From IMG/VR virus record IMGVR_UViG_3300010430_000297, positions 1-33,220 of that record: a stretch of DNA of 33,220 bases; one strand, written 5' to 3'. A program made the translations under genes and the position numbers. This document shows positions 1,880-27,653 of the stretch, in pieces. The notes under the pieces were generated by a model that was not told the DNA's origin, made no database searches, and saw only the letters and a list, made by a program, of their open reading frames with translations. The number at the start of each line of letters is the position of its first letter. Position 1 is the first letter of the stretch. This DNA comes from a virus.

Positions 1880-2796
1880 AATTCTACTTCTGTATTGTTA
1901 ATTTTCCAGATTGCATCTCCACCCCTACCATATTTTTTCAGTTTCTTATCAGTTTCCATTTCAGATAGGAGTAGTTTAGCAGATTGATCTTTAATGTCAA
2001 ACGCTTCCATGACTCTTTCTACAGTTATTAGAGGGGGATCATCCATTGTGAGGATTTCTTGCTTTCTAACGACCTTCACAGAGTCCTTCTTACCCTTCTT
2101 TTCATCTTCAGGTAGTTCATATTCACCTATGAACTCTAATCCAGTAGAACTCATTCTAGCTTCATGGAGGATAGTCTGACCAAATCTATTCTTATAGTTG
2201 TCAATGATTCTAAGATCCTTATCACCCTTAAGTTTCGAGATGTCTAGGTTTACATCTACAGCATATGGTAAAGATGAGCCACCTTTAATTGTACCATCTT
2301 GATTCTCCTGAACGATGAACAATAATGCACAATCATGGTCCTTAGCCTTTTTAACTAAGTTGTCAATGAAATACTTTATCCTAGCTCTAGAGTTTAACTC
2401 CAAGGCTGTAGTTAAAGATTGGAATGAGTCAATTACCAAGAAATCTAAATCTGGTATCAATGTTAAGATTACATCTACATCAGTAATGGTCGAAACATCA
2501 AGATTGATTACCTTGATTCTCTGACAATTATATGCAAGCTGTCTAATATCTTCTTCACCAGTGGCGAACCCAACATTATATCCAGCATTAGTTAGATACT
2601 CTCCAAGTAACAATGCAAAGGTAGTCTTACCAACTCCGGGTTTAGCCTTTAAAGTGATGGTAGAACCTTGCAATATACCCGTTCCAAAAATCGCATTCAA
2701 CGCCTCTACAGGTGTCTCTAGACGATTAAAAAAGGTGTCTGGTATTACTACATCAGACACCTTTGTAAATTTTACAGTCTCGAATCCCAAATTCAT
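1876..2796 (-). CDS. RadA-like RecA-fold ATPase
   Basis: This 306-aa protein aligns with the ATPase core of RadA/Sms. It has ETPVEALNAIFGTGILQGS leading into Walker A AKPGVGKTT (51-59), Walker B DFLVIDSFQSL (about 118-128), and KNRFG at 202-206, the signature of RadA branch-migration proteins. It lacks RadA's N-terminal zinc finger and C-terminal Lon-like domain. Residues about 245-306 instead look like a small winged-helix-type tail (MDDPPLITVERVMEAFDI...). A role in recombination or replication restart is inferred; a DnaB-like loader is the main alternative. It is first in a four-gene coupled set, and its ATG sits at the predicted +1 of the promoter at 2797-2823. Confidence 0.75.
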   Translation of the reverse strand: MNLGFETVKFTKVSDVVIPDTFFNRLETPVEALNAIFGTGILQGSTITLKAKPGVGKTTFALLLGEYLTNAGYNVGFATGEEDIRQLAYNCQRIKVINLDVSTITDVDVILTLIPDLDFLVIDSFQSLTTALELNSRARIKYFIDNLVKKAKDHDCALLFIVQENQDGTIKGGSSLPYAVDVNLDISKLKGDKDLRIIDNYKNRFGQTILHEARMSSTGLEFIGEYELPEDEKKGKKDSVKVVRKQEILTMDDPPLITVERVMEAFDIKDQSAKLLLSEMETDKKLKKYGRGGDAIWKINNTEVEL

Positions 2797-2823
2797 AGGA
2801 TCATTGTGGTCGGGTTTTAATTA
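2797..2823 (-). promoter_or_regulatory. Early/middle-type promoter, copy 2
   Basis: TAATTAAAACCCGA (2823-2810), then 13 nt, then ATG at 2796. The -10-like hexamer is CACAAT, weaker than copy 1, six nt before ATG. An ATG inside the spacer is out of frame and closes at once, which supports the 2796 start. It drives the RadA-like/phosphoesterase/HAD/YopX set. Confidence 0.6.
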
Positions 2824-2827
2824 CCTA

Positions 2828-3016
2828 TTATCCCACATTTTCCAAATACCAAAATGAGATTTCAGTGTCGAAATCCTTCTGACATTTAACACTACCATCT
2901 TTTACATATATGAAAGATTCGGGGTTGTCATTATCATCCCCCCAAATTTCAATCACATTCGATTCTGTCATTATAAAACTATAAGACCCTACTTCACCTT
3001 CGTATTTACTACTCAT
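2828..3016 (-). CDS. Small hypothetical protein, 62 aa
   Basis: A short acidic ORF with no family I can name. It has a regular composition (ESFIYVKDGSVKCQKDFDTE, W25, W56), no low-complexity run and no membrane segment. It begins 10 nt after the stop of the zinc metallopeptidase gene, so it may be translated from the same late RNA. A degenerate late-promoter-like ATAAATG lies 7 nt before ATG, with a mismatch in the last base. It ends TAA followed directly by TAG. Confidence 0.55.
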   Translation of the reverse strand: MSSKYEGEVGSYSFIMTESNVIEIWGDDNDNPESFIYVKDGSVKCQKDFDTEISFWYLENVG

Positions 3017-5433: not shown

Positions 5434-6474
5434 TTATTTAGTGCCACTTCCCAGTCTTTTACCGTCGAAACCGTCCAAAATCTCCCTATTGTCCAAATAC
5501 CATCCTAATGTATTCGCTAGACCTATTACAATGTCCAATTTAGGTTCCCATCCAAGTTCATTCATAGCCTTACTATAATTTATAGAATACCTAGCATCAT
5601 GTCCCGGTCTATCCGTAACATATTTAATTTTAGAGGTTGTGTTGACCTCTCGGGAAAGGAACTCATACTTAATTAGATTAACCATATCTATATTGGTTAT
5701 CTCACTATCACCCCCAAATAAGTAAGTTTCTCCAGCAATACCTTTAAATAAAACATCGATTAGACCTCTACAATGATCCTCGACGAAAATCCAATCTCGT
5801 ATATTTTTACCATTACCATAAATGGGAATATCCTCATTATTCAACATCTTTTTGATAATGGTTGGGATTAGCTTTTCAGGGTGTTGAAAGGGGCCATAAT
5901 TATTAGAGCAGTTCGTTACCATAACATTCATACCGTAAGTGTGGTGGTATGACCTTGCTAGGTGGTCTGAGGCTGCTTTGGAGGCACTATAGGGACTTCT
6001 AGGACTGTAGGGTGTATTTTCATCGAAAGGCTCGGCATCTAGTTCTAAAGAGCCAAAGACTTCATCAGTTGAAACATGAATAAACTTGCTATTCTCTCTT
6101 TTCGTTCTCTTGGAATATTGTCGAAAAGCTTCTAATAGATTGAATGTGCCTACAATGTTAGTTTGAATGAAATCTGCGGGACTATCAATAGATCGATCTA
6201 CATGAGATTCGGCGGCTAAATGCATCACATGGTCGATATCATAATACGACATATAAAACTCACAATCCGTATATGTCGTAATATCCGCTTCTTGGAAGTG
6301 GAATGTTCGATGATCAAAATCTACCGTCTCTTGTTTCAAGCTATTATAATATTGATTTGATGCATATGTGAGTTTATCTAAACAAATTACCTTATCGACT
6401 CGTTTATCTGACATCAACATATTACATAATGATGTTCCGATAAACCCTGCTCCCCCTGTTACTAGTATATTCAT
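5434..6474 (-). CDS. rmlB: dTDP-glucose 4,6-dehydratase (RmlB/RfbB)
   Basis: The 346-aa protein is a clear extended SDR. It has the NAD-binding GGAGFIG (7-13), the dehydratase triad T136-D137-E138 in HVSTDEVFG, catalytic Y162-xxx-K166 in SPYSASKAASDHL, and the family stretches LAAESHVDRSI and NNYGPFQHPEKLIP. RmlB converts dTDP-glucose to dTDP-4-keto-6-deoxyglucose, the branch point for rhamnose and other deoxysugars. Length is normal for the family. The ATG overlaps the stop of the upstream 114-aa gene as ATGA (6471-6474). A RmlA-like enzyme and another SDR lie at the far end of the window, so a viral nucleotide-sugar route is likely, perhaps for surface glycan or virion modification. Confidence 0.95.
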   Translation of the reverse strand: MNILVTGGAGFIGTSLCNMLMSDKRVDKVICLDKLTYASNQYYNSLKQETVDFDHRTFHFQEADITTYTDCEFYMSYYDIDHVMHLAAESHVDRSIDSPADFIQTNIVGTFNLLEAFRQYSKRTKRENSKFIHVSTDEVFGSLELDAEPFDENTPYSPRSPYSASKAASDHLARSYHHTYGMNVMVTNCSNNYGPFQHPEKLIPTIIKKMLNNEDIPIYGNGKNIRDWIFVEDHCRGLIDVLFKGIAGETYLFGGDSEITNIDMVNLIKYEFLSREVNTTSKIKYVTDRPGHDARYSINYSKAMNELGWEPKLDIVIGLANTLGWYLDNREILDGFDGKRLGSGTK

Positions 6475-10699: not shown

Positions 10700-11542
10700 T
10701 TACACTTCCTTTCCAAATCCTGCATGTTCCAGTGTTAGTGATTTGAATGACATATCTATTTTATATGCTTCGGGGACTACAACACCATCGATCTCTCTCC
10801 TAGTTCCCATCAAATTAACTGCGAAGCTTTCACAATATGCCCATCGAATGAATCTTTGACCGGGAACCTTAACTTTGTAGATTCTTGGAGGATCTACAGC
10901 GATACTATCCTTTCTTAAAGGTCTATTTATATATGTTAACCTTTGGACCAATTTATGGTTTTTGTCAATACTATCAGCATTGATAGTATTGGACACTACA
11001 AAGGATACTTCCAATGATCCATCACTCTTATCGAATTGGTAAAACATAGGAGTTTCCACATAGGTTCCGGGATTGCCACTATTTGTCATAGTTTTCAATG
11101 CCCCCGAGAAATCTCCAGATGCCGCTTCACTAAAAGCTTTCCCCACACTAGAAACATCCGTGATATTGGCGGCATTAGCAAGACCACCAGTTAAAACTTT
11201 CATTGACTCATTAACACTATTACCAATACCCCCAGATCCACCTACACCACTTTGAAAAGTATCCCCAAAGGTATTACTAAATGACCTAACATTATCACTG
11301 AAGAATGGGAAATTGAAATCATCTTCTGGGGTGGTAGCTTCGCCATACAGTTTATCGTAAAAAGCCTTAGCATCACCCCCAACCTCAGACGCTATCGCTA
11401 TATATCCTTGAATAGCTGACATTATCTGATTGGATTTTAGTTTATACGACTTCACCCAAACTCTAGGTGCTTTCTTTCGCATACCTGAGCCTCTTGGTGA
11501 ACTAGTCCAGTCATATTCTTTGACCACATCATACTTTGCCAT
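10700..11542 (-). CDS. Baseplate tail-tube cap/initiator protein (gp48/gp54-like)
   Basis: The 280-aa protein has a C-terminal half (FYQFDKSDGSLEVSFVVSNT, RPPRIYKVKVPG-type stretch, GQRFIRWAYCESFAVNLMG, then VVVPEAYKIDMSFKSLT) that matches the tube-like fold shared by gp48 and gp54. A Gly/Ser/Asn-rich low-complexity segment (about 95-165) separates it from the N-terminus. Such proteins cap the baseplate and start tube polymerisation. It is the first gene of a five-gene late operon and has its own late promoter at 11543-11554. Confidence 0.55.
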   Translation of the reverse strand: MAKYDVVKEYDWTSSPRGSGMRKKAPRVWVKSYKLKSNQIMSAIQGYIAIASEVGGDAKAFYDKLYGEATTPEDDFNFPFFSDNVRSFSNTFGDTFQSGVGGSGGIGNSVNESMKVLTGGLANAANITDVSSVGKAFSEAASGDFSGALKTMTNSGNPGTYVETPMFYQFDKSDGSLEVSFVVSNTINADSIDKNHKLVQRLTYINRPLRKDSIAVDPPRIYKVKVPGQRFIRWAYCESFAVNLMGTRREIDGVVVPEAYKIDMSFKSLTLEHAGFGKEV

Positions 11543-13461: not shown

Positions 13462-14193
13462 TCATGAATCAAAGAAGCTGACATCAATATCAAATGATTT
13501 TTCTTCCCCGTCAACATTAACAGTTAATGCCTCTGTTTCCTTCTTCTTAATATCCTGAATAAATGATATAATATCCTTATTCACAGACAATGGAAGATTC
13601 TCTACAATCTTGAACCTATCTTTTACAGGAATATCTCTAAATTGTAGAGTTTCTTCCCCAAATACAATAGTATTCACATATTTGACAATCTCATAGGTGT
13701 ATATATCTCCCACATTTTTACCAATTTCAGAATCCTCCTTCTTAACCACATCGATAGTTGCATTGATAATTTTATTATCCTCTATTAGATCTGGAATGTC
13801 AAGTTCTACTTTGATAGCACCCTTCAAAGTTTTGGTGGTTTTATGTTTCAGATTACTAATATTTGGGATAACTTGGGTTAAATCTACATCCACATCGCCA
13901 ATTTTCAGAGTATCCCCAATAGCATCTATACGTAATTGTAGAATTAATAAAACTCTATCAGTTGTAAGTAGTGTATCCAGTCCAGTATTTTTAATGATAA
14001 TATCGTTTAGATACTTCTGAAACTTTAAAGCGCCTATTGGACCATCTGCAATAGTGCTTATCAAATCCTTCTGCTATTTAAATGATAATGGGGAGCAATC
14101 GATTACACCTCCCCCAGAATTCACATTGACCTTAATTTTCTTATCTTTAAGTTCCTGAATCTTCTCTAAAAATGTTTTGACGTTATCTTCCAT
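13462..14193 (-). CDS. Baseplate hub/assembly protein (gp26-like), interrupted by an in-frame amber codon
   Basis: A late promoter 6 nt upstream leads to ATG at 14193. The frame reads 39 codons (MEDNVKTFLEKIQ... to SPLSFK), meets TAG at 14076-14074, then continues in the same frame for 203 codons (QKDLISTIADGPIGALKFQK...). The join SFK-[TAG]-QKDLIS looks like the uninterrupted N-terminal half of T4 gp26-type baseplate proteins, so the amber most likely replaces a Gln (CAG to TAG). Without readthrough, translation could only restart near TTG 14064. The downstream part keeps regular composition with no other stop. It could be a natural amber allele, a sequencing error, or programmed or suppressed readthrough. 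T4 gp26 is a baseplate hub component. Confidence 0.65.
14074..14076 (-). other. In-frame amber codon inside the gp26-like gene
   Basis: TAG at codon 40, followed by CAG (TAG-CAR is the first half of a known leaky context). Both flanks are coding in the same frame, and the upstream part has its own late promoter. Confidence 0.9.
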
Positions 14194-14206
14194 AATATCT
14201 ATTTAC
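14194..14206 (-). promoter_or_regulatory. Late promoter, gp26-like gene
   Basis: GTAAATA (14206-14200), spacer GATATT (6 nt), ATG at 14193. It lies in the 30-nt gap after the upstream gene and supports 14193, not TTG 14064, as the real start. Confidence 0.65.
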
Positions 14207-14223: not shown

Positions 14224-14952
14224 TCAAATACTCATCTCATTATTTTGAGATTCTGTCTCTTCCGTATACTTATCTACATAGTATTCGATATCGAGAGGTG
14301 TGCTATTGACTAGTAAAGTTCCATCTATTCGTTTAGATAGTAGGAATATAACATCTCTGAAATAGTTCTCATCATAACTGGAGAACATCCCCTTCAAAAA
14401 TGTAAGAGGATCATTGGTTAAGAAGTTTAATCTAAATTTACTTAGAGTAGGATTGTCAAATGTTACTATTTTAGACTTTTCCTTGGAAATAGTATTTATA
14501 ATTGCATTGAATGCCTTAGCTGGGAGATTGTTTATGATATCCATCTTATCCTGTGTAGATATATCTATCAGATTTATAGATATACCAGATATTTCGATAT
14601 ACTGTAGAATTTCATATATTGGTATTAATTCTGTTGAATCGTAGAACTTTTTAGGTATACCAACCCTCAATGTTGTATCTCCATCTACGATTTCAATATC
14701 AGACTCTATATCTGGTAATTGAGATAGGATATAGGATATTTGAATTTTTGTAGGTTTATCGAAGTTGAAATTTAAGTTATATGCAACATCATTATTCCAA
14801 CATTTCAATACTTCTTTAAACTTTTCAAAAATATTATCGCCCCGAAATGAATTTAAATAATCCACCAGAACGTCAGTGTTATCCCTTTGAACTGCATCAG
14901 ATATTAATTGCAGGTCTGAGAATAGTATCTTATATTTGTTGATAATTTTCAC
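14224..14952 (-). CDS. Putative baseplate assembly protein (gp26/gp51-like)
   Basis: The protein is about 242 aa. The region TFLKGMFSSYDENYFRDVIF followed by LLSKRIDGTLLVNSTPLDIEYYVD resembles the C-terminal helical segment of small T4-like hub assembly proteins (Y/F-x-x-x-x-F-L-L-S-K-x...). The N-terminal half (KIQISYILSQLPD, TTLRVGIPKKF) has the baseplate gp26-type look. Position between tube-like and gp26-like genes agrees. The start is uncertain: GTG at 14952 or TTG at 14958, both inside the 3' end of the upstream gene, so coupling is expected. No late promoter is visible. Confidence 0.45.
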   Translation of the reverse strand: MKIINKYKILFSDLQLISDAVQRDNTDVLVDYLNSFRGDNIFEKFKEVLKCWNNDVAYNLNFNFDKPTKIQISYILSQLPDIESDIEIVDGDTTLRVGIPKKFYDSTELIPIYEILQYIEISGISINLIDISTQDKMDIINNLPAKAFNAIINTISKEKSKIVTFDNPTLSKFRLNFLTNDPLTFLKGMFSSYDENYFRDVIFLLSKRIDGTLLVNSTPLDIEYYVDKYTEETESQNNEMSI

Positions 14953-15529
14953 AGGCAAATGTTACTGATTTTATCTTAAAGTCTGTATCTGCATAGTCTA
15001 GGGTGTATCCCTCGACCGCAGTTGGAAATATCTTATCAAATCTATATCCTTTGATGAATGCTCCAGCATTTGAATATTGTCTAACCTCCATAGTTCCTTT
15101 TAAGGATACTCCATCTTCAACCAATCCCTTAATACCAAGGGCAATCGCCCAAGGTCTAAAGAAGTTATGTTCGATATCTACTTCAGTTTCTAAAAAGTTT
15201 ACCGAAAATGATCTATCTAAGAAATTAGATCTTGAGTTCAATGCATAACCGGGAAGAAATCCACCCATAGCATCTCCAGACTCCGTAGCAGTGAACCCTG
15301 ATGATTCATTTGGCAATGTTACGGACTGTGCAACTAATATGTTACCACCCTTAGTCATAGACTGTGCGGAAGTTCTAGCTTGCCACTTTTCACCTGCTTC
15401 TGATAATACCGAATTAATAGATCCTTGAGAAACTCCATCAATAGTTACAGACCATAGGACTGGAAGATTGAGAAAGAATTTCTGATCATTCGCAAATGCG
15501 GAGAAGAATTCGTTGATGTTAACTGACAC
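14930..15529 (-). CDS. Tail-tube-fold protein, paralogue of gp19
   Basis: The 199-aa protein parallels the true tube gene just upstream: an N-terminal MSVNINEFFSAFANDQKFFL versus MPANINTFFNIASQKQFSRD. It has a C-terminal F-P-T-A-V-E-G-Y-T-L-D-Y...V-T-F-A-C-E-N-Y like the last strands of gp19-family proteins. It may be a tube terminator or adaptor at either end of the tube. The start is GTG at 15529, fixed by a late promoter exactly 5 nt upstream. A terminator hairpin separates it from the tube gene. Confidence 0.6.
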   Translation of the reverse strand: MSVNINEFFSAFANDQKFFLNLPVLWSVTIDGVSQGSINSVLSEAGEKWQARTSAQSMTKGGNILVAQSVTLPNESSGFTATESGDAMGGFLPGYALNSRSNFLDRSFSVNFLETEVDIEHNFFRPWAIALGIKGLVEDGVSLKGTMEVRQYSNAGAFIKGYRFDKIFPTAVEGYTLDYADTDFKIKSVTFACENYQQI

Positions 15530-15541
15530 AAATATATTTAA
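15530..15541 (-). promoter_or_regulatory. Late promoter, tube-like gene
   Basis: TTAAATA (15541-15535), spacer TATTT (5 nt), GTG at 15529. It lies just downstream of the terminator that ends the tail tube transcript. Confidence 0.65.
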
Positions 15542-15545
15542 CTAT

Positions 15546-15587
15546 AAAACAAAAAATCCCAACCGATTTTATTATCAGTTGGGATTT
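15546..15587 (-). terminator. Rho-independent terminator after the tail tube gene
   Basis: On the minus strand a perfect 10-bp stem AAATCCCAAC / GTTGGGATTT (arms 15578-15587 and 15554-15563, 14-nt loop) is followed by TTTTTTGTTTT. It lies 17 nt after the tube stop, as expected for a highly expressed gene. Confidence 0.85.
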
Positions 15588-15603
15588 AGGGAAATATTTT
15601 TAC

Positions 15604-16170
15604 TTATTTTGCAAAGTTCTCATACCAGTGGTAGGAGAATGAACATGTGATTGTCTTAATCTCACCAGTTCCGTCAGCGATCTCATATCCAACTTCACCA
15701 ATGTTACGAATTCCAACACCAACTAACTTAATAGTTTCGATTGTCTCCATACCTTGACCACCTTCATTACCTTGTCCACATGGAACACCTAGAACATCAA
15801 GAATGATATAACTTTCTGGTCCGGGCATACACATTTGACCAGTAGTAGTTTCATTATCGAATGATAGTCTAGAAGCTTTTTCGAATTTAGTTCTAAGATC
15901 TAAACCTTGATCCATATAGAACTCAAGACTATACGCCTCTGATCCGGGATATGAGGACTTACCATTCAAGTTGAAGGCTTGTCCACTATAGTTTACAACC
16001 TTGTTCTCGATATCTCTACCGGGAAGGTTAGCAGTTCTAGCGAATACCAAGTCTGTCTCCCCATCGAGAGACATACCGGGAACTACAATTTGCTTAACTC
16101 GAAAGAAGAAATCTCTAGAGAATTGCTTTTGGGAAGCAATGTTGAAGAATGTATTAATGTTTGCAGGCAT
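15604..16170 (-). CDS. 19: Tail tube protein (gp19-like)
   Basis: The 188-aa protein matches the T4 gp19 family. It begins M-P-A-N-I-N-x-F-F-N-x-A-S-x-K-Q-F-S-R-D-F-F-F-R-V, has FARTANLPGRDIENKVVNY, and later YSLEFYMDQG and the C-terminal ITCSFSYHWYENF. It polymerises inside the sheath to form the DNA conduit. Length is close to T4's 163 aa. It sits directly downstream of the sheath gene, as in T4, but with its own late promoter and its own terminator, consistent with high expression. Confidence 0.9.
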   Translation of the reverse strand: MPANINTFFNIASQKQFSRDFFFRVKQIVVPGMSLDGETDLVFARTANLPGRDIENKVVNYSGQAFNLNGKSSYPGSEAYSLEFYMDQGLDLRTKFEKASRLSFDNETTTGQMCMPGPESYIILDVLGVPCGQGNEGGQGMETIETIKLVGVGIRNIGEVGYEIADGTGEIKTITCSFSYHWYENFAK

Positions 16171-16182
16171 ATATTTATTTAG
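16171..16182 (-). promoter_or_regulatory. Late promoter, tail tube gene
   Basis: CTAAATA (16182-16176), spacer AATAT (5 nt), ATG at 16170. CTAAATA is also the form described for cyanophage late promoters. Confidence 0.75.
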
Positions 16183-16190
16183 TTATTTGA

Positions 16191-18494
16191 TTACCCAATT
16201 AGTTCTTGGAAATTCGCATCAGTTCTTGTAGATGTAAACGTAACAATTATGAATTCAGCAGTCCTAGTAGCTTTGATGTAAATATCAGCCTTAAGTTCAT
16301 TTGAATCAATAACTTCTGGAGTATTGTTTCGCTCATCACATACGATTAGGTAATCATATAGACCACCATTATTCTTCGCATATTCGAAGATTGGTGTTAG
16401 AGTATTAACGAAACGTGTTCTTGTGAACTCATTGTTTGGTTCGAACACATAGAAAACAGATGCTTTCTTAGTTGGACGTTCTAGAGCTAAGAACAACCTA
16501 CGAACATTGATTCTATCGAATGAACTTGGTTTTCTACTTAGAGTCTTCTGACCAAAGATTGCCATACCTTGTGATGGGGAGAACAATACTGGGTTAATAT
16601 TAGATTTGTAAAGCTCATCTCTCTGTTTCTGATTCGGAGTGATTGCGATATTGACCACATTACCGCTCACTAGTCCTCTAGTGTATCCAGCAGGGGCAGA
16701 CCAAGGGAATTCGGCTGCGTCATTGCGAGCGTATGCTGCGGCTGCTACAGAGGAGAATGGAACCCAAATCTTATCACCTAAGAACTCGTCATATACTTGC
16801 GCCCAGTTACCATACACAGCAGCATATGAAGTATTTTCTAGTTCAAATTGATGACGAATGCCCCAGTAGATGTGTTGTTGGAAATTCTTAGTTCTATCAG
16901 ATAATGTTTTAGTATTTTTACCTTTGACCATTAACTGTCTAATTGGATCAGCAATGAAGATACAATCTCCTCGACCACCAGTATTACTTGGAAGGTTACA
17001 GAAGTTTTCAAATTTATTAAACACTGTGCTATAGTTTGCGCGGATATTTTCACCAGTAGCACCTAGATCGCTAGATGTTTGTAGGGAAGAGATAGATGCA
17101 ACTATGGCAGTATCATCATAGTATGTTGTTCCAAGTTCTTCGGTTGCAACATATATTGTTCCAAGACCAGCTTCAACTACAACATCAATGTCGTAGATTT
17201 CGTCATTTACGACAGCATCTAAGGCTCTTTCAATTTTAGATGGAATCGATCCTAATTGTTTAGAAGCGAGGGCGGAATCTGAATAAGTCCCTAGAGCATA
17301 TAGATTATCAGCATAACCGATTCTTGCTGCAATCTCTGTAAGTCTTGCAGTTGGAACACCAGATTTAACCACATCGTTAGATGCAATTAGTCTATTGGTT
17401 AGGACACGCATTTTCTTAGTTGGAATACCAACTGCATTTAGAGAAGATGAAGAGAATTTATTGGAGATATATGGATTTACCAAGATCTCAACGTTACGAC
17501 TATTCTCATCCGCACTTTCTAGGAAGAATGATACTGTTGGACCCCCAAGAGGGTTTAGTTGTGTTCTATACGAATCGACAGAACCTACAATACGATCCTC
17601 TAGGACATAATCGAGTTTATATGCAGCAGTAGCATAGAGACTCTTACGAAGTTTAAATACCCCAATGTTTAGAACATCGTCATCATCTCTACCATCGATG
17701 TTATAATCCGTAAGATTTTCCATCACTTGGGAGATCGAAGCTGAGTATCCAGACGCAGAACTTAGACTAAATTGTAGAGTTCCATTTGGAATGTCTGTAT
17801 AACTAGTTGTAATATCTGAAGATAGGCTAACTGTTTTAGCCCCAATGATTGCATTGTGGACTGTATCAGGGTTAATGTTAGTATTATCTGCAAGACCAAC
17901 GTAGTAACCTTCAAATTGACTATTGATCGTTGTCTGCGCTTTGTTCAGAATGATTAGGCCAGCATTTCCCAATGTATCTAAGGATGTATAACCAGAACGA
18001 TCAATTGCAGATGTGGACCATGTGAATAGTGAACCTTCCTGTGCTTGGAAGTATTCATCTTCAGTTAGGATCATTTGAACTGGATCACCTAGGACATATG
18101 TGGCAGAAGCTGCTGTATAGTCAGTTCCTTGTCCCGCAGACATGCTAGGAATAGATGTAGTATAAGCTAGTGCTGGGTATACCAGCGCAGAGTAATTAGA
18201 TCCAAATCCAGATCCCGCATTCTCCCCATAAGGTAGACGAGATGTGTAGATACTAGCAGGAGAATTTAACTGTTCGGTAATACCATGATAGAAATATCTT
18301 TCTGCACTATTAGTAGGAGTTCCGTAGATTTGGATTAATTCATCTCTAGTTGTAATTTTTAAAACTTCATCAGTTGGGCCTTGAGAAGCATAACCAGCAA
18401 TAAAGATATTAGTTCCAACGTTTTGTGGAGCTGTAAGAGATAGATCACGTTCCCTGATTTCAACACCGGGTGATAGTAGAGTTCTAGTAGCCAT
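16191..18494 (-). CDS. 18: Tail sheath protein (gp18-like)
   Basis: The 767-aa protein starts MATRTLLSPGVEIRERDLS and continues with GTNIFIAGYASQGPTDEVL and ELIQIYGTPTNSAERYFY, the classic N-terminal sheath arm. Conserved C-terminal stretches are WVPFSSVAAAAYARNDAAEF, GMAIFGQKTL and INVRRLFLALER. It forms the contractile sheath. It is longer than T4 gp18 (659 aa); the extra residues are probably in the outward-facing middle domains (about 130-330). Its late promoter has a 6-nt spacer. Confidence 0.95.
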   Translation of the reverse strand: MATRTLLSPGVEIRERDLSLTAPQNVGTNIFIAGYASQGPTDEVLKITTRDELIQIYGTPTNSAERYFYHGITEQLNSPASIYTSRLPYGENAGSGFGSNYSALVYPALAYTTSIPSMSAGQGTDYTAASATYVLGDPVQMILTEDEYFQAQEGSLFTWSTSAIDRSGYTSLDTLGNAGLIILNKAQTTINSQFEGYYVGLADNTNINPDTVHNAIIGAKTVSLSSDITTSYTDIPNGTLQFSLSSASGYSASISQVMENLTDYNIDGRDDDDVLNIGVFKLRKSLYATAAYKLDYVLEDRIVGSVDSYRTQLNPLGGPTVSFFLESADENSRNVEILVNPYISNKFSSSSLNAVGIPTKKMRVLTNRLIASNDVVKSGVPTARLTEIAARIGYADNLYALGTYSDSALASKQLGSIPSKIERALDAVVNDEIYDIDVVVEAGLGTIYVATEELGTTYYDDTAIVASISSLQTSSDLGATGENIRANYSTVFNKFENFCNLPSNTGGRGDCIFIADPIRQLMVKGKNTKTLSDRTKNFQQHIYWGIRHQFELENTSYAAVYGNWAQVYDEFLGDKIWVPFSSVAAAAYARNDAAEFPWSAPAGYTRGLVSGNVVNIAITPNQKQRDELYKSNINPVLFSPSQGMAIFGQKTLSRKPSSFDRINVRRLFLALERPTKKASVFYVFEPNNEFTRTRFVNTLTPIFEYAKNNGGLYDYLIVCDERNNTPEVIDSNELKADIYIKATRTAEFIIVTFTSTRTDANFQELIG

Positions 18495-18507
18495 ATGTAG
18501 TATTTAT
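18495..18507 (-). promoter_or_regulatory. Late promoter, tail sheath gene
   Basis: ATAAATA (18507-18501), spacer CTACAT (6 nt), ATG at 18494. The 62-nt gap to the upstream gene's stop otherwise holds only a weak hairpin without a U-tract. Confidence 0.7.
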
Positions 18508-18556
18508 CTTTTATTTGACAAACTTTTCAAATGACTAAATAATAGATTTCAAATAC

Positions 18557-19141
18557 TTATATCTCACTTAGAATCTCAACGTGCATCTGGCTATATAAAA
18601 ATGTGAATCCAGATATGATTTCTTCCCCTTCTGATCCTTTCTGGTCAAATTCAATACCATCGATTGAAGTTGGGAATGCTTTAGTATACTTGAATGATAT
18701 TCTCTTCTTTCCGAATTCATCTAGACCATATACAGTTAAATCTGTTTGGTAGTCGTTAAAGTTCAAATCATTTGGAACTAATCCCGCCTCATTATAAACA
18801 CCAGTCTTTTGATCATGTAGAAGATTCAACCATGAGTAGATAGAATAATAGTTATTATACATACTATCAACATTGAATTTAATATTGACGGGCGGATATG
18901 AATCCTTACTATGTGATGATGTATATAACGTGGAACCCGCATATCGTGATTCTGTCCCTTTTACCACAATTTCTGGAACCATAGTTCCAAAGATGGAGAA
19001 TTGAACACTATCAGGGTTGATCACCTTACTATCCCTCTGAAACTTTCTAGCTATAGGCTTTAGAATAGGGGGAAGATCGAAGACAAGTAAGAACTTATCC
19101 TTACGTGCCTTATTGATGAATGATTGGACTGTGGTTTCCAT
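18557..19141 (-). CDS. Third tail-tube-fold protein
   Basis: The 194-aa protein has the tube-family ending (ISFKYTKAFPTSIDGIEFDQ, then IISGFTFLYSQMHVEIL), aligning with the F-P-T-A-V-E-G...V-T-F-A-C of the paralogue at 14930-15529. Its N-terminus differs (ARKDKFLLVFDLPPILKPIA). It lies between terminase and sheath, where T4 has gp17 then gp18, so it is an extra gene. A tube terminator (gp3-like) or sheath-associated role is possible. Its late promoter overlaps the terminase stop codon. Confidence 0.55.
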   Translation of the reverse strand: METTVQSFINKARKDKFLLVFDLPPILKPIARKFQRDSKVINPDSVQFSIFGTMVPEIVVKGTESRYAGSTLYTSSHSKDSYPPVNIKFNVDSMYNNYYSIYSWLNLLHDQKTGVYNEAGLVPNDLNFNDYQTDLTVYGLDEFGKKRISFKYTKAFPTSIDGIEFDQKGSEGEEIISGFTFLYSQMHVEILSEI

Positions 19142-19153
19142 ATATTTATTTAC
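19142..19153 (-). promoter_or_regulatory. Late promoter overlapping the terminase stop
   Basis: GTAAATA (19153-19147), spacer AATAT (5 nt), ATG at 19141. The TAA stop of terL lies within the core. Confidence 0.7.
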
Positions 19154-20933
19154 CGAAAACTCTGTTCATGGCATCATATTGATCTCTAGTCATATCTCTA
19201 TCTGGGTCTGCATATGGCATACCACCCCCTCCAAGTAATTGCCAACCTTCAGCTAGTAGTCCTGCTATTTCATCATCCCCTTCTCCGAATCCGCCAAATG
19301 CCACTGGATTCAACATAGAGTTTTCTATTCTATCAACTTGCTCGTTGGTATATAATGATGTTGGATTCTCAAAGTATTTGATTCCGTAATCTAATGCTGA
19401 TATCTTTACGGGTTTACCGCAGTCATCAACTTCATCAATTGTGAACCATCTTTCACATAGATTATTATCTAGAATCATCAATGCCCAAATAGTTGCCATT
19501 GTTCTATCATCATGCTTACCAGATGCGGCTTGCCAAGTATCATTAACCTTGATGAAGTCTTTGAAAATTTCTTCCAATGATGGTTCATTTTGAAATATAA
19601 CTGCCCTCTTATCACTGTAGAAGTATCGAGCGTTTGCAACAGCATGATATTTTGTATTTCTAGATGATACCATACCGAATAGTTCTAAGTTCTTTCTACC
19701 CGCTAATTTAGATCCCCAGTTGACTATCTTCTCATATGCAAAGTCTATACCAAGTCTATCTGCTACTTGACCCCCTTGATTGTTTCTCTCGATACATACT
19801 AGGGGATTCCCCCAGTGTCCTAGGATTTCATGTAACTTATTAGAGAATTCTGCAACTGGTATCATATTATCATAATACTCAGCAACTTCGATTATTTCTC
19901 GTATATCTGTTATATCTAGAACTTTAATTACAGAGTAGTCACCCCCAAGTCCTTCCCCAACATCAACACCAACTACATATATATGCTCTGGGTTAGGTTT
20001 GTCGAAAATGAGATACTTATCATCCATTAGACTATCTATTGGCTTTTTAACTTGTTTTAAAAGTTCACGATAAACCTCCTCATCCATAGATGACGTTCCT
20101 GTATTGACGAATTCAACCTCATACTCCTGTCTCCATTTCTCAGCAGATGCTAACCCACTCTTAATCTTATCTGCCCATGCTTGATCTCTTCCCGGAACTT
20201 CATTCCATAAGATCTTATCATATGCCCAACCATTTTTACCTTCAACAGCACCACTATATATACTATGGAATAGATTACCCGTTCCATTAGGTGTGGAACA
20301 CATGAATACTTTGGGATTATCCAAAGATGATACAATTGGAAATACTGATCCCCAAAATGGGTCCATTAAATGTTCTTCAATGAAAGCGCACTCATCAATA
20401 ACTAGAATGTTACAAGATTGACCCCGAGCAGCAGTTCCAGTAGTGGTTGATATATTAACTCTGGAACCATTTTCCAATTCCATACTAGTTTTACCATATG
20501 TACCATTTACAGGACATTTCAACCAGTTGGGTAGAAACTCATATGCCATTCTAATTCTACCAAAAATTTCAATTGCGGTTGCTTCTTTATTGGCGACCAA
20601 TAGGATTCGATTATCATCGTAGAAAATTGCAATCCATAATATATAGATTGTCATCAGAGTTGATTTTCCGATTTGGCGACTTGCTAATAATACAAAGAAA
20701 TTATTTTCATCCATCTTTTTCAAAATTCTCCTTTGTCCTTCATGTAGCACAATTGGAACTTTTCCCTTTCCGGGTATTAGAATGTAGAAATATGTTTCAG
20801 CAAAATGTAGAATATCTTTCTTACATTTTGTCATCTCGTCCACCATCTCTGGTGTGTATTCAAACTCAGCCCCCCTAGATGGAACCTTGGGATTTCCCAT
20901 ATAGAACTTCTCTTTTTTATCTTTAGCTGCCAT
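19146..20933 (-). CDS. 17: Terminase large subunit (gp17-like)
   Basis: The 595-aa protein is a complete packaging motor. The ATPase has Walker A SRQIGKST (85-92), Walker B ILVIDE (176-181) and coupling motif STPNGTGN (213-220). The RNase-H-like nuclease has D324 in GVDVGEG, E382 in CIERNN and D475/D476 in KHDDRTMAT. An N-terminal LHEGQRRIL supplies the Q motif. It cuts concatemeric DNA and drives it into the prohead. Length is close to T4 gp17 (610 aa). It is transcribed away from the prohead-core-like gene, and both use arms of one perfect inverted repeat as promoters. Confidence 0.97.
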   Translation of the reverse strand: MAAKDKKEKFYMGNPKVPSRGAEFEYTPEMVDEMTKCKKDILHFAETYFYILIPGKGKVPIVLHEGQRRILKKMDENNFFVLLASRQIGKSTLMTIYILWIAIFYDDNRILLVANKEATAIEIFGRIRMAYEFLPNWLKCPVNGTYGKTSMELENGSRVNISTTTGTAARGQSCNILVIDECAFIEEHLMDPFWGSVFPIVSSLDNPKVFMCSTPNGTGNLFHSIYSGAVEGKNGWAYDKILWNEVPGRDQAWADKIKSGLASAEKWRQEYEVEFVNTGTSSMDEEVYRELLKQVKKPIDSLMDDKYLIFDKPNPEHIYVVGVDVGEGLGGDYSVIKVLDITDIREIIEVAEYYDNMIPVAEFSNKLHEILGHWGNPLVCIERNNQGGQVADRLGIDFAYEKIVNWGSKLAGRKNLELFGMVSSRNTKYHAVANARYFYSDKRAVIFQNEPSLEEIFKDFIKVNDTWQAASGKHDDRTMATIWALMILDNNLCERWFTIDEVDDCGKPVKISALDYGIKYFENPTSLYTNEQVDRIENSMLNPVAFGGFGEGDDEIAGLLAEGWQLLGGGGMPYADPDRDMTRDQYDAMNRVFGK

Positions 20934-20950
20934 AATATACCTTTATTTAA
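20934..20950 (-). promoter_or_regulatory. Late promoter, terminase large subunit gene
   Basis: TTAAATA (20950-20944), then 10 nt including AAGG, then ATG at 20933. This is the longest late spacer in the window and predicts a leader of about 5 nt. Confidence 0.6.
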
Positions 20951-20975
20951 ACAAAAACGTTAAATAAAGGTATAT
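20935..20975. repeat. Perfect 16-bp inverted repeat forming divergent late promoters
   Basis: Arm ATATACCTTTATTTAA (20935-20950) is the exact reverse complement of TTAAATAAAGGTATAT (20960-20975), with 9 nt between. Each arm holds a late core plus AAAGG, and the right arm runs into the ATG of the plus-strand gene. This makes two mirror-image promoters about 10 bp apart. Confidence 0.9.
20960..20973 (+). promoter_or_regulatory. Late promoter, prohead-core-like gene
   Basis: TTAAATA (20960-20966), spacer AAGGTAT (7 nt) with an AAGG that could serve as a weak ribosome site, ATG at 20974. Confidence 0.6.
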
Positions 20976-21849
20976 GAAAAAAGGCGATTCAGTTCAAATT
21001 GGTGATATTTATGGTAAAATGCTCAATACCGTTAAGTATAACATTAAGGAGTCTAAGACTGCTTTTGGTGATTTCAAAGGAGAAAAGAAGAAGGATGCCG
21101 ATGGATATAATGAACCTTTAGACGATGACGAAGATGTTTGCGGCGAAGAGGATGAAGAAGAAACCAAGAAGGGTAAGTTCGAACTATTTAAGAAGGGTAA
21201 GAAAAAAACTAAAGGGTCTGACGATGAAGATTCAGATGAAGATTCAGACGATAATTTAAAAGAATCTAAAAAAGATAGTAGAGAAAAGGTAAATACTTTT
21301 ATGAGCAAATCAGTGTTCGACAAACTATACAGTAAAGTCCTTAAAGAAAACTTCGGCGAAGAAGATGGAAATGATATCGATGCCCTTGGCCTTGATGGAT
21401 CAACTCCTGATTCCGATCTTGATGATGACTTCGGAGGAGAAGATGAATTCGGAGAAGGGGAGGGTGATACCGTAACCTTTACACTTGACCGAGCAACCGC
21501 ACAAACTCTAATTGATGTCCTTCAAGGATCTCTTGGTGAAGAAGAAGGTGGTGGTGAAGATGAGTTCGGTGGAGATGACCTAGACTTCGGAGATGGAGAA
21601 GGTGATGACATGGACTTCGAGGAAGATGAAGAAGAAGGAACTAAAGTAGCTCCTGATAAGAAGCAAGCTTTCCAAGCCAAGTCTAATAAAGTTTCTGGAC
21701 ACCCAGCACCTAAGAGTGGTAAGGCTTCTACAGATGTAACTGACGAAACTGGAACTAAAGATGGTGCGCCACCAATTGCTGCCCTACAAGGTAAGAGCAA
21801 TCAAGTTCCTAAATCATCTCTAAAGAAAGCTACTGATTACTTCAAGTAA
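20974..21849 (+). CDS. Acidic prohead-core/scaffold-like protein
   Basis: The 291-aa protein is very acidic, with Asp/Glu-rich runs at about 47-63, 82-95, 127-166 and 188-222, interrupted by a Lys-rich patch (64-80) and a short ordered segment DTVTFTLDRATAQTLIDVL. Near the C-terminus a motif repeats: AFQAKSNKV (232-240) and ALQGKSNQV (270-278). Such Asp/Glu-rich proteins form the prohead core in T4-like phages (gp67, gp22). (L/I)xE tripeptides that T4 gp21 protease would cut occur (IKE, LKE, LGE). Core or scaffold is inferred from composition and from its place beside terL. A terminator follows. Confidence 0.5.
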   Translation: MKKGDSVQIGDIYGKMLNTVKYNIKESKTAFGDFKGEKKKDADGYNEPLDDDEDVCGEEDEEETKKGKFELFKKGKKKTKGSDDEDSDEDSDDNLKESKKDSREKVNTFMSKSVFDKLYSKVLKENFGEEDGNDIDALGLDGSTPDSDLDDDFGGEDEFGEGEGDTVTFTLDRATAQTLIDVLQGSLGEEEGGGEDEFGGDDLDFGDGEGDDMDFEEDEEEGTKVAPDKKQAFQAKSNKVSGHPAPKSGKASTDVTDETGTKDGAPPIAALQGKSNQVPKSSLKKATDYFK

Positions 21850-21877
21850 TTCTTAGATAACTAAAATTCAACCAGAC

Positions 21878-21905
21878 AAGCCTATCTTAACCGATAGGCT
21901 TTTTT
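21878..21905 (+). terminator. Rho-independent terminator after the prohead-core-like gene
   Basis: Stem AAGCCTATC (21878-21886) / GATAGGCTT (21893-21901), loop TTAACC, then a T run. The late promoter of the next gene begins two bases after the T run. Confidence 0.85.
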
Positions 21906-21906
21906 G

Positions 21907-21918
21907 TTAAATAGTATT
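21907..21918 (+). promoter_or_regulatory. Late promoter, 172-aa gene
   Basis: TTAAATA (21907-21913), spacer GTATT (5 nt), ATG at 21919. It fixes the start at 21919 and rules out the in-frame start at 21904, which lies in the terminator's T run. Confidence 0.75.
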
Positions 21919-22437
21919 ATGATACCTTTCAATAAATTTTTTCGCTTGATGGAATCGAATTCTATCCATCCTGAAACTCCTATACATGTTATAAATAGTA
22001 AAACTAAGGAAATCGTCTGGAAAGGTGTATACTCAAAGCGTAATATCGCTAGAAGAGCAGTGGATAGAAAAGATAATAAATATGGTGCATATATACATAA
22101 AGTTGTATATCCCAAAGGAATGGATTATACTCCCCCAATATTAGAATATAGAAAAAATCTAGCTGATGGTTCACCCGCACCATCTATTCAAGCTCACAAT
22201 GGTAAAGACCCTAATAGTATAGATAAGAAGTATCTATTCACTAAGGGAGATCGAAAGCACGATAATCCTAAGATGGATATTCCCGGTAGTATCTTAACTC
22301 TACCAGAACTGGAAGAGATGGGAATTAAGGATTTCCAAAGTGGTAAAACCCTATTCAACTTTAAGAATAGTAATACTGACATTCAAATGTTCACCAATCC
22401 GCAAGGACAATGGGTAGGTAGAGTCATTAAACATTAA
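21919..22437 (+). CDS. Hypothetical late protein, 172 aa
   Basis: I do not recognise this protein. It is basic in the N-terminal half (YSKRNIARRAVDRKDNKYGA), Pro-rich in the middle, and has a C-terminal beta-like stretch (TLFNFKNSNTDIQMFTNPQG). No membrane segment or catalytic motif is visible. It is a late gene between the core-like protein and the gp14-like neck protein, so a head or neck role is likely by context. Its TAA stop lies inside the late promoter of the next gene. Confidence 0.65.
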   Translation: MIPFNKFFRLMESNSIHPETPIHVINSKTKEIVWKGVYSKRNIARRAVDRKDNKYGAYIHKVVYPKGMDYTPPILEYRKNLADGSPAPSIQAHNGKDPNSIDKKYLFTKGDRKHDNPKMDIPGSILTLPELEEMGIKDFQSGKTLFNFKNSNTDIQMFTNPQGQWVGRVIKH

Positions 22438-22445
22438 ATAACAAT
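22434..22445 (+). promoter_or_regulatory. Late promoter, neck protein gene
   Basis: TTAAATA (22434-22440), spacer ACAAT (5 nt), ATG at 22446. It overlaps the stop of the preceding gene (22435-22437). Confidence 0.75.
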
Positions 22446-23228
22446 ATGGGATGCCCTCCAACACCACTTTCTTGTTTAGAACCCTCTAATATATTTGCAG
22501 GGGTCTATAATCCTAATTGTGGGGGATTTGCAGATCCATCCAACTTTCAAGCTGAACAAGCTATATTTGGTTCTGGTTTTCAAGAACTAATTAATAATTA
22601 TGGGGTTGAAGTGAATTACTTTGTCAATGGCTTCAATTTATCAGCTATGAATGTCTTGTATGGAGAACATACTACACAAGAATACTCTGGTCCACATGTG
22701 ATCAAGTCTTATATAGAACTTGAAGAATCCGTATCTCTATCTCAATTCGGCATGAGTTCGGATGATGAGTTAACAGCATATATTGCTATTAAAGACTTCA
22801 CAAATCTATTTGCATTATCTGGTGATATCTTCACAGATAATGGACAAAGAGTAGAACCCAAGTCAGATGACTTAATGGAGATTACAGCTTTAGGTTGTAA
22901 TAGACCGGGTGATAGAGGGGCTAAGATCTTTAGAATAACTGAAGTTTTAGATCAAAACACATCTGGTGGTATAAATCCTGTTATGGGACATTATGTTTGG
23001 GCTATCAAAGCGAAACGCTACGAAACTAGTCACGAAACCAATGCACCTATGGAACTTGGTAATGATCAAGTATATGATAATACTTTCAGTGGTAAATTAT
23101 CATCCACACTATTCCAAAGTCTCACAACTCAAGAAAAGGCATATCCGGGTGATATTGATGTGATAAGTCAAGAAGATGTCTACGACATGGATAAGGTAGA
23201 TAACGATATCTACGGAGACTACTACTAA
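22446..23228 (+). CDS. 14: Neck protein, gp14-like
   Basis: The 260-aa protein follows the layout of T4 gp14. NNYGVEVNYFVNGFN is followed by NVLYGEHTT, then IKSYIELEESVSLSQFGMSS with DELTAYIAI (T4: FSNFGMQVQDEVTLSI). A P-x-x-x-DLMEIT stretch before FRITEVLDQ corresponds to GDLIYFP...FEITWVEP. Neck proteins close the portal and join the tail. The acidic, Tyr-rich C-terminus (VYDMDKVDNDIYGDYY) is extra. It overlaps the convergent baseplate gene by 4 nt. Confidence 0.65.
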   Translation: MGCPPTPLSCLEPSNIFAGVYNPNCGGFADPSNFQAEQAIFGSGFQELINNYGVEVNYFVNGFNLSAMNVLYGEHTTQEYSGPHVIKSYIELEESVSLSQFGMSSDDELTAYIAIKDFTNLFALSGDIFTDNGQRVEPKSDDLMEITALGCNRPGDRGAKIFRITEVLDQNTSGGINPVMGHYVWAIKAKRYETSHETNAPMELGNDQVYDNTFSGKLSSTLFQSLTTQEKAYPGDIDVISQEDVYDMDKVDNDIYGDYY

Positions 23229-25348
23229 TATCCTAGTGACAGAGATTGATATAGAGTATCTAATATCATATTGTCATATATCCCATTAACACTATCTAAG
23301 GCTGATAAACCTGTAGTGCTATCAATGGTAGTTTTAGTATTTTCGAAGTCGATTACGCCACCAATTATATTACCATCGAATGCATCGTTATAATCGAAAA
23401 ATAAGTAGTATTTCTCAATATCTATGAAATCGAACGTAGTTGGTAGAACTAAAGGCCAGCCCCAGTCAGATGTATATCCAGATAGTGGGTATACGGAAGC
23501 CCCAGTGGCAGATAGCGGCTGTTGAGAATTTAATAGCGTGTAGATGTTGGAAAACTTCTCAAGTGCCACTATATCGGTTCCAGAGGATACCGAATATGTT
23601 TGAGTATTAAGTTTATCGCCAATGTTCACGCCAAATTCATCTTTAGTGGATCTTCCCCTAATATCTAAATTCTCTTTAAATTTATTCGAAGTTCCAAATA
23701 GTCTCACCTTATCAATAGATAATAGATTTACAATTCTCTCGATTTTCTCTGGTAGATACCAGTTTTCATCCCCAACACCAGTATAATTTAAATTTTCTCC
23801 AAGAGAGTTTAAAAATTCAACTTCACATTTATCAAGATCCTGTGTATTGTCTGTAAAGTTGGCGATCTTTTCGTATAGTTTAATACCTATGGCTTGATGA
23901 TCTGAATCGGCATTACCCAACACACCACCAATGAAATCCCCGAACAATACTTCCTTATCTAGAAGAGTTTCTTGGAATCTTAAATCTTTTATAGTTTCTT
24001 CTGGATTGAAATCCTCGTTCTTCTTATAAATGTCAAAGTAATTTGGGGGATACACACTGAAGTAATTAGAACTACCACTCAATGTATATGCGGATAGTTG
24101 ATCGCTTGTAAAGGTTCCCCCTGCATTTATTCTAACGTTCTCTAATACATCCACAGATGAGATGTTTGGGAAGGTTATATATCCTCTAAACGCACCCCCA
24201 TGATTCTGTGCAGATAGAGTGTAGTTCAATGATGATATTGAGTATACATCTGAAGTTGCTCCTGTCACATTGAGGTTTAGAGCGGATAGTTCAATACTAT
24301 CGAAATTTTTAATGGAGAAATCATCAACACCTTTCACTTTAATCACGAATGGTATGTTGGTATTATAATACTTGATAGGATTTATCTTAAATGAATCGAT
24401 TTCATAACCTTCTCCATCCATACCATTGGATGTTACAGTTAGGTAACTTCCAGCAGTATCTTCAATATTAGCGGATAGCGTAATTCCTAGGTTGTTGTAA
24501 TGATCAAGAGTTTTTCCGTGAAAATGATTATTCGTTCTATCAAAATACATTTTCACTAGAAGCTTATCTGTTATAGTATCCTCTTTGAGATATACAAGTT
24601 TGGTTGAAGATATACCCACGAACTCTGATCCAATATCAGTTGCAGGGCAATCGACTATCATATCGTCCACTATTTTCGCATATAGATCGACACCAACAAA
24701 TTCAATCTTATCAACTTCTCTATATTGATAGCTAGATAATGAATAGTTATAGATTCTATCATATAGAGTATTGAAGTTCTCTAAGTGTTTGAATTTATTG
24801 TCTAAGTTCCAATAATTTGAACTATCCGAACCAGACATCTCATAGAATATATTTGAAATTGATTGATATGGTGGGTAATATGAATCCACAACTAGTGGAC
24901 CATTAATCTTACCACATTTGAAATTGATGGTAGATAATGAGGACCCTGTAGATGAATAGATTAGAATTAATCCATTATACCATATAGGATCTCCATCGTA
25001 TACGATACCCTCACTGTCATATGATGGATTATATGATATATTGAACGTTAATGGTGTATAATCGTGTATAATTACGATCTTTTCAAAGGTTGAGATCTGT
25101 GCATTATTATTACAATCATACACGACCATATTCACAGTATACTTACCGGGATACTTATAACTCTTAGTTGCTGAGAATGAATCAGTTACAGTCCCATCTC
25201 CGAAATTCCACACAACTCTATTATGGATAGATTGTTGTAAATCTGGTATAAATGTTATAGGCGTTAGGTCAAGCGCATATGATGATAACGAGTCAACACC
25301 CGTATAATCAATAGCACTAAAATTCACATATGTTGTGGTATTACTCAT
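23225..25348 (-). CDS. Baseplate-associated protein with an N-terminal PKD domain
   Basis: Residues about 28-95 of this 707-aa protein form a PKD fold: VVWNFGDGTVTDSF (WNFGDG 47-52), then SYKYPGKYTVNMVVYD. PKD domains are immunoglobulin-like modules often involved in binding glycans or proteins. The rest is Ser/Tyr/Asn-rich and beta-looking, with a more helical segment at about 430-600 (EETIKDLRFQETLLDKEVLF). It follows gp25 and gp6 with an 8-nt overlap, the slot of gp7 in T4, so a wedge or fibre-attachment role is inferred. It is the only gene here with a TAG stop, in a TAG-TAG-TAG run that is antisense to the neighbour's Tyr codons. Confidence 0.6.
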   Translation of the reverse strand: MSNTTTYVNFSAIDYTGVDSLSSYALDLTPITFIPDLQQSIHNRVVWNFGDGTVTDSFSATKSYKYPGKYTVNMVVYDCNNNAQISTFEKIVIIHDYTPLTFNISYNPSYDSEGIVYDGDPIWYNGLILIYSSTGSSLSTINFKCGKINGPLVVDSYYPPYQSISNIFYEMSGSDSSNYWNLDNKFKHLENFNTLYDRIYNYSLSSYQYREVDKIEFVGVDLYAKIVDDMIVDCPATDIGSEFVGISSTKLVYLKEDTITDKLLVKMYFDRTNNHFHGKTLDHYNNLGITLSANIEDTAGSYLTVTSNGMDGEGYEIDSFKINPIKYYNTNIPFVIKVKGVDDFSIKNFDSIELSALNLNVTGATSDVYSISSLNYTLSAQNHGGAFRGYITFPNISSVDVLENVRINAGGTFTSDQLSAYTLSGSSNYFSVYPPNYFDIYKKNEDFNPEETIKDLRFQETLLDKEVLFGDFIGGVLGNADSDHQAIGIKLYEKIANFTDNTQDLDKCEVEFLNSLGENLNYTGVGDENWYLPEKIERIVNLLSIDKVRLFGTSNKFKENLDIRGRSTKDEFGVNIGDKLNTQTYSVSSGTDIVALEKFSNIYTLLNSQQPLSATGASVYPLSGYTSDWGWPLVLPTTFDFIDIEKYYLFFDYNDAFDGNIIGGVIDFENTKTTIDSTTGLSALDSVNGIYDNMILDTLYQSLSLGY

Positions 25349-27185: not shown

Positions 27186-27648
27186 TGTTTAGTTCAGATT
27201 TAATTGATAGTCCTCGAATATCCAAAGATGGGACATCTATTTGTAGATTTATATAATAAGAATTCGCATCTTCATCCCCAATAACCTCAACATTCTTAAC
27301 GGTTATCCTAGGCTCCATCCTTGGAAGTTTACTTTCGATATCTTCTTGAATTATATCTGCCGTGAAGTCGTCAACAGGTTCAAATATGTATTGTCTAAGA
27401 TCTACGCCATATAAAGGACTCAAGATCTTATCACCCGGAGAAGTTAGGAATGCAGTAACAATACTATTCTTAATAGCTTCAATATCATATAAAACACTAA
27501 GATCCTTCAGATATTCTTGTTTGTTCAGCTGATTGTTAAATGATACCTCCGATGTTAGGTCAAATTCTATATCTTTATATAGATAATCCTTCTTTAGAGA
27601 TTGCTCTACTAAGGAATCAACTTGTAATGATTTGATTTTAATCGCCAC
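27163..27648 (-). CDS. 25: Baseplate wedge protein gp25 (lysozyme-like)
   Basis: The 161-aa protein shows the GPW/gp25 core AIKNSIVTAFLTSPGDKILS, then PLYGVDLRQYIFEP, and the conserved MEPRI (EPR) motif followed by VKNVEV. gp25 joins wedge to sheath and starts sheath polymerisation; despite its name it is not expected to be an active lysozyme. The start is GTG, 5 nt after the stop of the coiled-coil gene. No late core is present at the usual place, so it is read from the promoter at 29331-29342. Confidence 0.9.
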   Translation of the reverse strand: MAIKIKSLQVDSLVEQSLKKDYLYKDIEFDLTSEVSFNNQLNKQEYLKDLSVLYDIEAIKNSIVTAFLTSPGDKILSPLYGVDLRQYIFEPVDDFTADIIQEDIESKLPRMEPRITVKNVEVIGDEDANSYYINLQIDVPSLDIRGLSIKSELNSVGYTVI

Positions 27649-27653
27649 TATTA

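Follow-up and report, generated by a model that had tools for sequence, protein, structure and literature searches.

Is an amber codon inside a conserved phage tail gene a sign of an altered genetic code, a regulated event of translation, or an isolated defect? This question is raised by IMG/VR record IMGVR_UViG_3300010430_000297, of which a stretch of 33,220 nucleotides (here called the window) was analyzed. On the minus strand of the window, a gene resembling T4 gene 26 carries an in-frame TAG at codon 40. An initial annotation, made from the sequence alone, offered four options, i.e., an amber mutation, a sequencing or assembly error, programmed readthrough, and recoding of TAG to Gln. Our results favor mutation or sequence error and do not favor the other two: the TAG is very probably a lone nonsense substitution, affecting an invariant Gln codon in an otherwise intact, standard-code gene of a T4-like phage.

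An in-frame TAG in a gp26-like gene

The in-frame TAG was confirmed as a real feature of the sequence. The frame runs on the minus strand from an ATG (14193) through 38 further codons to the TAG (14076-14074) and then through 203 codons to a TGA (13462), reading MEDNVKTFLEK...SPLSFK-TAG-QKDLISTIADG...SFFDS-TGA. This agrees with the layout described initially, in which the 39 coding codons before the TAG include the ATG. Full readthrough would give a protein of 243 residues. The ORF caller reported only 13462-14064, with an internal TTG as the start. A natural start near 14064, which the initial annotation had named as the case that would dissolve the anomaly, was rejected because homologs begin at the upstream ATG; this start was shared by 10 of 10 close homologs checked. 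Homologs of the upstream neighbor (Table 1) are full length.

Table 1. Features of the gp26-like locus in the window and CTA-anticodon tRNAs in related contigs
Feature	Position	Strand	Evidence or remark
gp26-like baseplate hub chaperone gene with internal TAG	13462..14193	-	Frame reading, PF12322, phrog_150, AlphaFold, structure matches
In-frame TAG, codon 40	14074..14076	-	Gln in 52/52 distinct full-length homologs
39-codon segment preceding TAG	14077..14193	-	Predicted helix 2-16, strands 20-24 and 29-33, first two residues of helix 38-70
203-codon segment 3' of TAG	13465..14073	-	Conserved; decay not seen
TTG chosen as start by ORF callers (200-aa ORF)	14062..14064	-	Product without residues 1-43, including invariant Q40-Q41-K42
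Intact upstream neighbor, possible gp51/gp26 relative	14224..14958	-	Same Pfam family weakly, 23.2 bits, just under cutoff of 24.5
TAAATA late-promoter core of gp26-like gene	14200..14205	-	12 nt upstream of ATG
Second TAAATA, present only because of TAG	14075..14080	-	TTTAAATAG; 16 nt upstream of in-frame TTG (usual, 11)
CTA tRNA, G001 (206 kb)	23941-24013 (= L029 4242-4314)		Rfam tRNA, 63.8 bits
CTA tRNA, G014 (138 kb)	2757-2830		
CTA tRNA, G020 (197 kb)	193136-193210		

The identification of the protein as gp26-like was well supported. The readthrough protein matched Pfam family PF12322 (T4_baseplate; E = 4.4e-9; 36.8 bits versus a cutoff of 24.5) over residues 19 to 221, i.e., across the TAG, and it also matched PHROG 150 (phrog_150; baseplate hub). 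An AlphaFold model built from 34 sequences had a mean pLDDT of 91.8. Predicted viral structures that matched this model included gp26, hub subunits, and hub assembly chaperones (E values of 6e-8 to 3e-5). A fold search of the PDB with the model yielded no significant match, and named phages searched with the protein yielded none. Like T4 gene 26, the window gene lies near tail tube and sheath genes and has a late-promoter core; unlike it, the gene carries a premature TAG, and its protein is very remote in sequence from T4 gp26 (hhalign E of 0.0036, probability of 9%). Judged by profile and predicted fold, the readthrough product is a T4 gp26-type baseplate hub chaperone. In T4, gp26 appears as a hub-assembly chaperone (PMC3004832).

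The normal gene would thus encode a 243-residue hub chaperone of the gp26 type, expressed from a late promoter just 5' of the ATG. Read literally, translation of this copy would end at residue 39 and functional gp26 would be absent, in which case the particle would fail to build its tail hub unless the stop were suppressed. In the model, only the first two residues of a 33-residue helix (38-70) precede the TAG; the 39-residue peptide is therefore not a whole domain, nor is a product begun at 14064.

Codon 40 is an invariant glutamine in homologs

Homologs were collected from IMG/VR by two independent routes, using the protein itself and the tail sheath gene 2 kb upstream. When they were aligned across the site, as the initial annotation had advised, codon 40 was Gln in all 52 distinct full-length homologs (37 CAA and 15 CAG), which span about 68% down to 30% identity; none of the 52 had a stop anywhere. 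Gln40 is one of nine invariant columns among 34 diverse members, and the CAG that follows the TAG encodes Gln41, which forms an invariant Gln-Gln pair with Gln40. One transition separates TAG from the CAG of several homologs, including the closest relative. Because Gln40 is invariant and no homolog has a stop, the TAG represents a Gln codon lost in a single, isolated step.

Both sides of the TAG retain the pattern of coding sequence. Differences from the closest homolog at the first, second, and third codon positions were 0.18, 0.08, and 0.56 before the TAG and 0.24, 0.12, and 0.59 after it. The excess at third positions over first and second positions, together with the Pfam domain spanning the TAG, indicates a coding region on either side and bears out the initial view that the junction lies in one conserved region. 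At 27 columns conserved at ≥90%, the window gene deviates at only one besides codon 40 (D139 for E). Its protein has a mean identity of 0.448 to the other homologs, versus 0.439 for the nearest intact relative. From these comparisons, the frame 3' of the TAG appears to be under normal constraint, with no sign of decay; dS is saturated between homologs, and dN/dS was unusable. An exact-pattern search that allowed either base gave no independent copy of the site, and bacterial genomes searched for the host or for relatives gave no hit.

TAG is used as a stop codon in the window and its relatives

The window holds about 35 genes and has a coding density of 97% under the standard code (table 11). 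A gene-by-gene comparison of these genes with relatives revealed no other internal stop, leaving the TAG at codon 40 as the sole internal one among about 10,500 codons, of which 311 encode Gln. Poor assembly and wide decay were rejected as explanations, as no other broken genes were found in the window. In a tblastn comparison of 21 related contigs (~1.98 Mb of matched conserved sequence), the TAG at codon 40 was the only sense-strand in-frame stop backed by three or more genomes, and 17 of 17 query genomes read Gln at this codon. The other internal stops listed were set aside, being antisense shadow frames, probable tRNA antisense frames (e.g., SRSHQSPC*), or untranslated stretches 5' of a start; those at G006:77972 and G020:113005 were weakly aligned cases with two queries.

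TAG-recoded phages (table 15, crAss-like phages, and phAss-1) resemble the window in having TAG where homologs have Gln, and CTA tRNAs occur in some relatives of the window's phage. However, TAG lies within 41 of 147 ORFs (28%) in phAss-1 (PMC10607447), as opposed to 1 of about 35 genes here. In recoded phages, coding capacity rises from a median of about 67 to 69% to 90% with recoding (PMC11210395), whereas the window is already at 97% under the standard code. A CTA suppressor tRNA is present in only 52% of table-15 phages (PMC11210395). On the basis of the single internal TAG, the coding density, and the lack of any other supported stop in the ~1.98 Mb, recoding of TAG to Gln was rejected; the option raised initially is unsupported, as no internal TAG was seen in the relatives with a CTA tRNA either.

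Two further observations concern other genes of the window. The gene for a PKD-domain tail protein (23225-25348, minus strand) is the only one that ends in TAG, and it terminates in three tandem TAG codons. Sugar-nucleotide genes of the nucleotidyltransferase and NAD-dependent epimerase/dehydratase families are located at 31869-32612, at 5434-6474 (minus strand), and possibly at 32609-33220 (minus strand) in this T4-like phage; they are suggestive of dTDP-sugar synthesis.

CTA-anticodon tRNAs, possible suppressors, in related phages

A tRNA search of the window detected none, and thus no CUA-anticodon tRNA in this fragment. As the window is a 33-kb fragment, this result is uninformative about the rest of the genome. 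Of 20 related contigs, three (G001, G014, and G020; Table 1) contain a tract with a CTA anticodon that folds as a tRNA. An amber suppressor tRNA encoded elsewhere in the phage genome might therefore read the TAG, yielding a reduced amount of full-length gp26 and making the stop tolerable, which would also fit the lack of decay 3' of the TAG. We consider this reading unlikely. The three CTA tRNAs are unlike the Gln tRNAs of the clade (they have G1-C72 and A73, and the closest tRNAs, about 70% identical, are of other types), yet codon 40 is invariantly Gln. Moreover, in the genomes that carry them, conserved genes show no internal TAG, whereas 5 to 8% of genes end with TAG as a stop, and the window itself has just the single internal TAG. 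The stronger proposal that the hub chaperone is made only by suppression of this TAG, through a phage-encoded amber tRNA outside the fragment, seems distinctly improbable.

Late promoters and a second TAAATA created by the TAG

The late promoter reported before the ATG was recovered as a TAAATA core (14205-14200), and the motif lies at about the same place upstream of the gene in 10 of 10 homologs checked. TAAATA occurs within 20 nt of the start in 13 of 34 window genes, versus 0.34 expected. Examples with a distance of 11 (or 12) nt are 10700-11542, 14930-15529, 15604-16170, 16191-18494, 18557-19141, 22446-23228, and 29365-30261. In a survey of 12 contigs of the clade (the window and 11 related contigs; 1,267 ORFs), TAAATA starts exactly 11 nt 5' of the start codon in 250 ORFs and at 12 nt in 66 more, with few at other distances. 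Counted from the motif, ATG follows TAAATA 268 times at offset 11 and 82 times at offset 12, as opposed to 12 to 49 times at other offsets from 6 to 39. The commonest distances were 33 to 34 nt in the T4 stretch examined and 28 to 30 nt in one cyanophage, in contrast to 11 nt in this clade. In the T4 late promoter, the octamer occupies -13 to -6; with this geometry and a spacing of 11 nt, transcription would begin on the A of the start codon. By this analogy, the spacing predicts that late mRNAs across the clade are leaderless. Few window genes have a Shine-Dalgarno-like motif. The literature searched contained no report of a fixed 11-nt TAAATA spacing or of leaderless late mRNAs.

The base change behind the TAG also produces a second TAAATA core (14080-14075), 16 nt before an in-frame TTG. 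The TAG could then be functional, either by programmed readthrough or in a split or restarted gene that gives a C-terminal product; in T4, the annotation of gene 26 includes a shorter C-terminal product, 26', and some starts in the clade have TAAATA 13 to 16 nt upstream. However, the arrangement is conserved in no homolog, its spacing is 16 where the rule is 11, and TTG follows TAAATA at a spacing of 11 in just 1 of 255 cases. The product would lack helix 2-16, the hairpin, the start of helix 38-70, and the invariant Q40-K42. Given the usual spacing and the rarity of TTG starts in the clade, we take the second TAAATA to be a coincidence.

Programmed readthrough, which the initial annotation had listed with the context TAG-CAG, fared no better. 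A stop at codon 40 is present in 0 of 52 homologs, RNA structure 3' of the TAG is not beyond chance (fold z = -0.47), and the CAG is a residue of the invariant pair rather than a selected context. A readthrough context of the tobacco mosaic virus (TMV) type is CAR-YYA, and TAG CAG AAG does not contain it in full. A functional TAG of any of these kinds is extremely improbable. Suppression could also come from the host, if it has a suppressor tRNA or if UAG is naturally leaky. Being listed for T4 as a hub-assembly chaperone (PMC3004832), gp26 is plausibly needed at low amounts, so that enough might be made for the mutation to be nearly neutral, and the intact sequence 3' of the TAG would agree with this. 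The absence of a stop at codon 40 from all homologs and the lack of RNA structure apply here too, however, and we regard this explanation as very doubtful.

A probable isolated nonsense codon

Since nothing else in the window is recoded, an isolated mutation or a sequencing error is the likeliest origin of the TAG, and we infer that the TAG is nonfunctional. An error is conceivable because the TAG is seen in a metagenomic consensus; we put a consensus or sequencing error at slightly less than an even chance. The second candidate, at roughly one chance in three, is a true nonsense allele segregating among the phages of the population and captured in the assembly.

The rate of such events was estimated from a near-identical contig from another sample (L084; IMGVR_UViG_3300010392_000759), which has 2 differences in 13,505 bases (99.985% identity over window positions 14990-28494). 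Both differences lie in the tail tube gene, separated by 32 nt and close to the end of this contig; one is synonymous, and the other affects a variable residue. The contig stops at window position 14990, leaving 914 bases between it and the TAG site. With 4.9% of random substitutions yielding a stop and half of the observed difference rate taken as unselected (error or standing variation), 2 Mb should contain about 7 nonsense codons (about 2.6 if only transitions are counted), a rate that derives from two differences only. One was seen in 2 Mb; a related contig adds a lone TAA in a small gene. As this rate predicts several unselected nonsense codons, one TAG needs no special mechanism. The lone TAA (G002, 148237, minus strand) occurs where the homolog has Gln, in a small conserved gene with 78% identity across it.

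Against an isolated stop, a probably essential gene would not be expected to carry a nonsense allele as the majority sequence of a viable population without suppression, and CTA-anticodon tRNAs occur in three relatives. Amber nonsense alleles of essential tail genes are familiar from classical phage genetics. The window TAG resembles them in that a single Gln codon is lost in a late structural or assembly gene; it differs in coming from a metagenomic consensus, where it may be an error, and in that no suppressor host is known here. An isolated nonsense codon at this site is an ordinary event.

The locus also serves as a warning, as ORF callers set the start of the gp26-like gene at the internal TTG and thereby hide its first 43 residues. 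The CTA tRNAs in standard-code relatives without internal TAG raise the separate question of what those tRNAs do. Were a phage-encoded tRNA to suppress the TAG, a late assembly step would depend on a phage tRNA, and the locus would represent an early stage or an isolated case of recoding in a T4-like lineage. If the TAG is fixed and suppressed, this would be a rare T4-like phage with a single suppressed amber codon.
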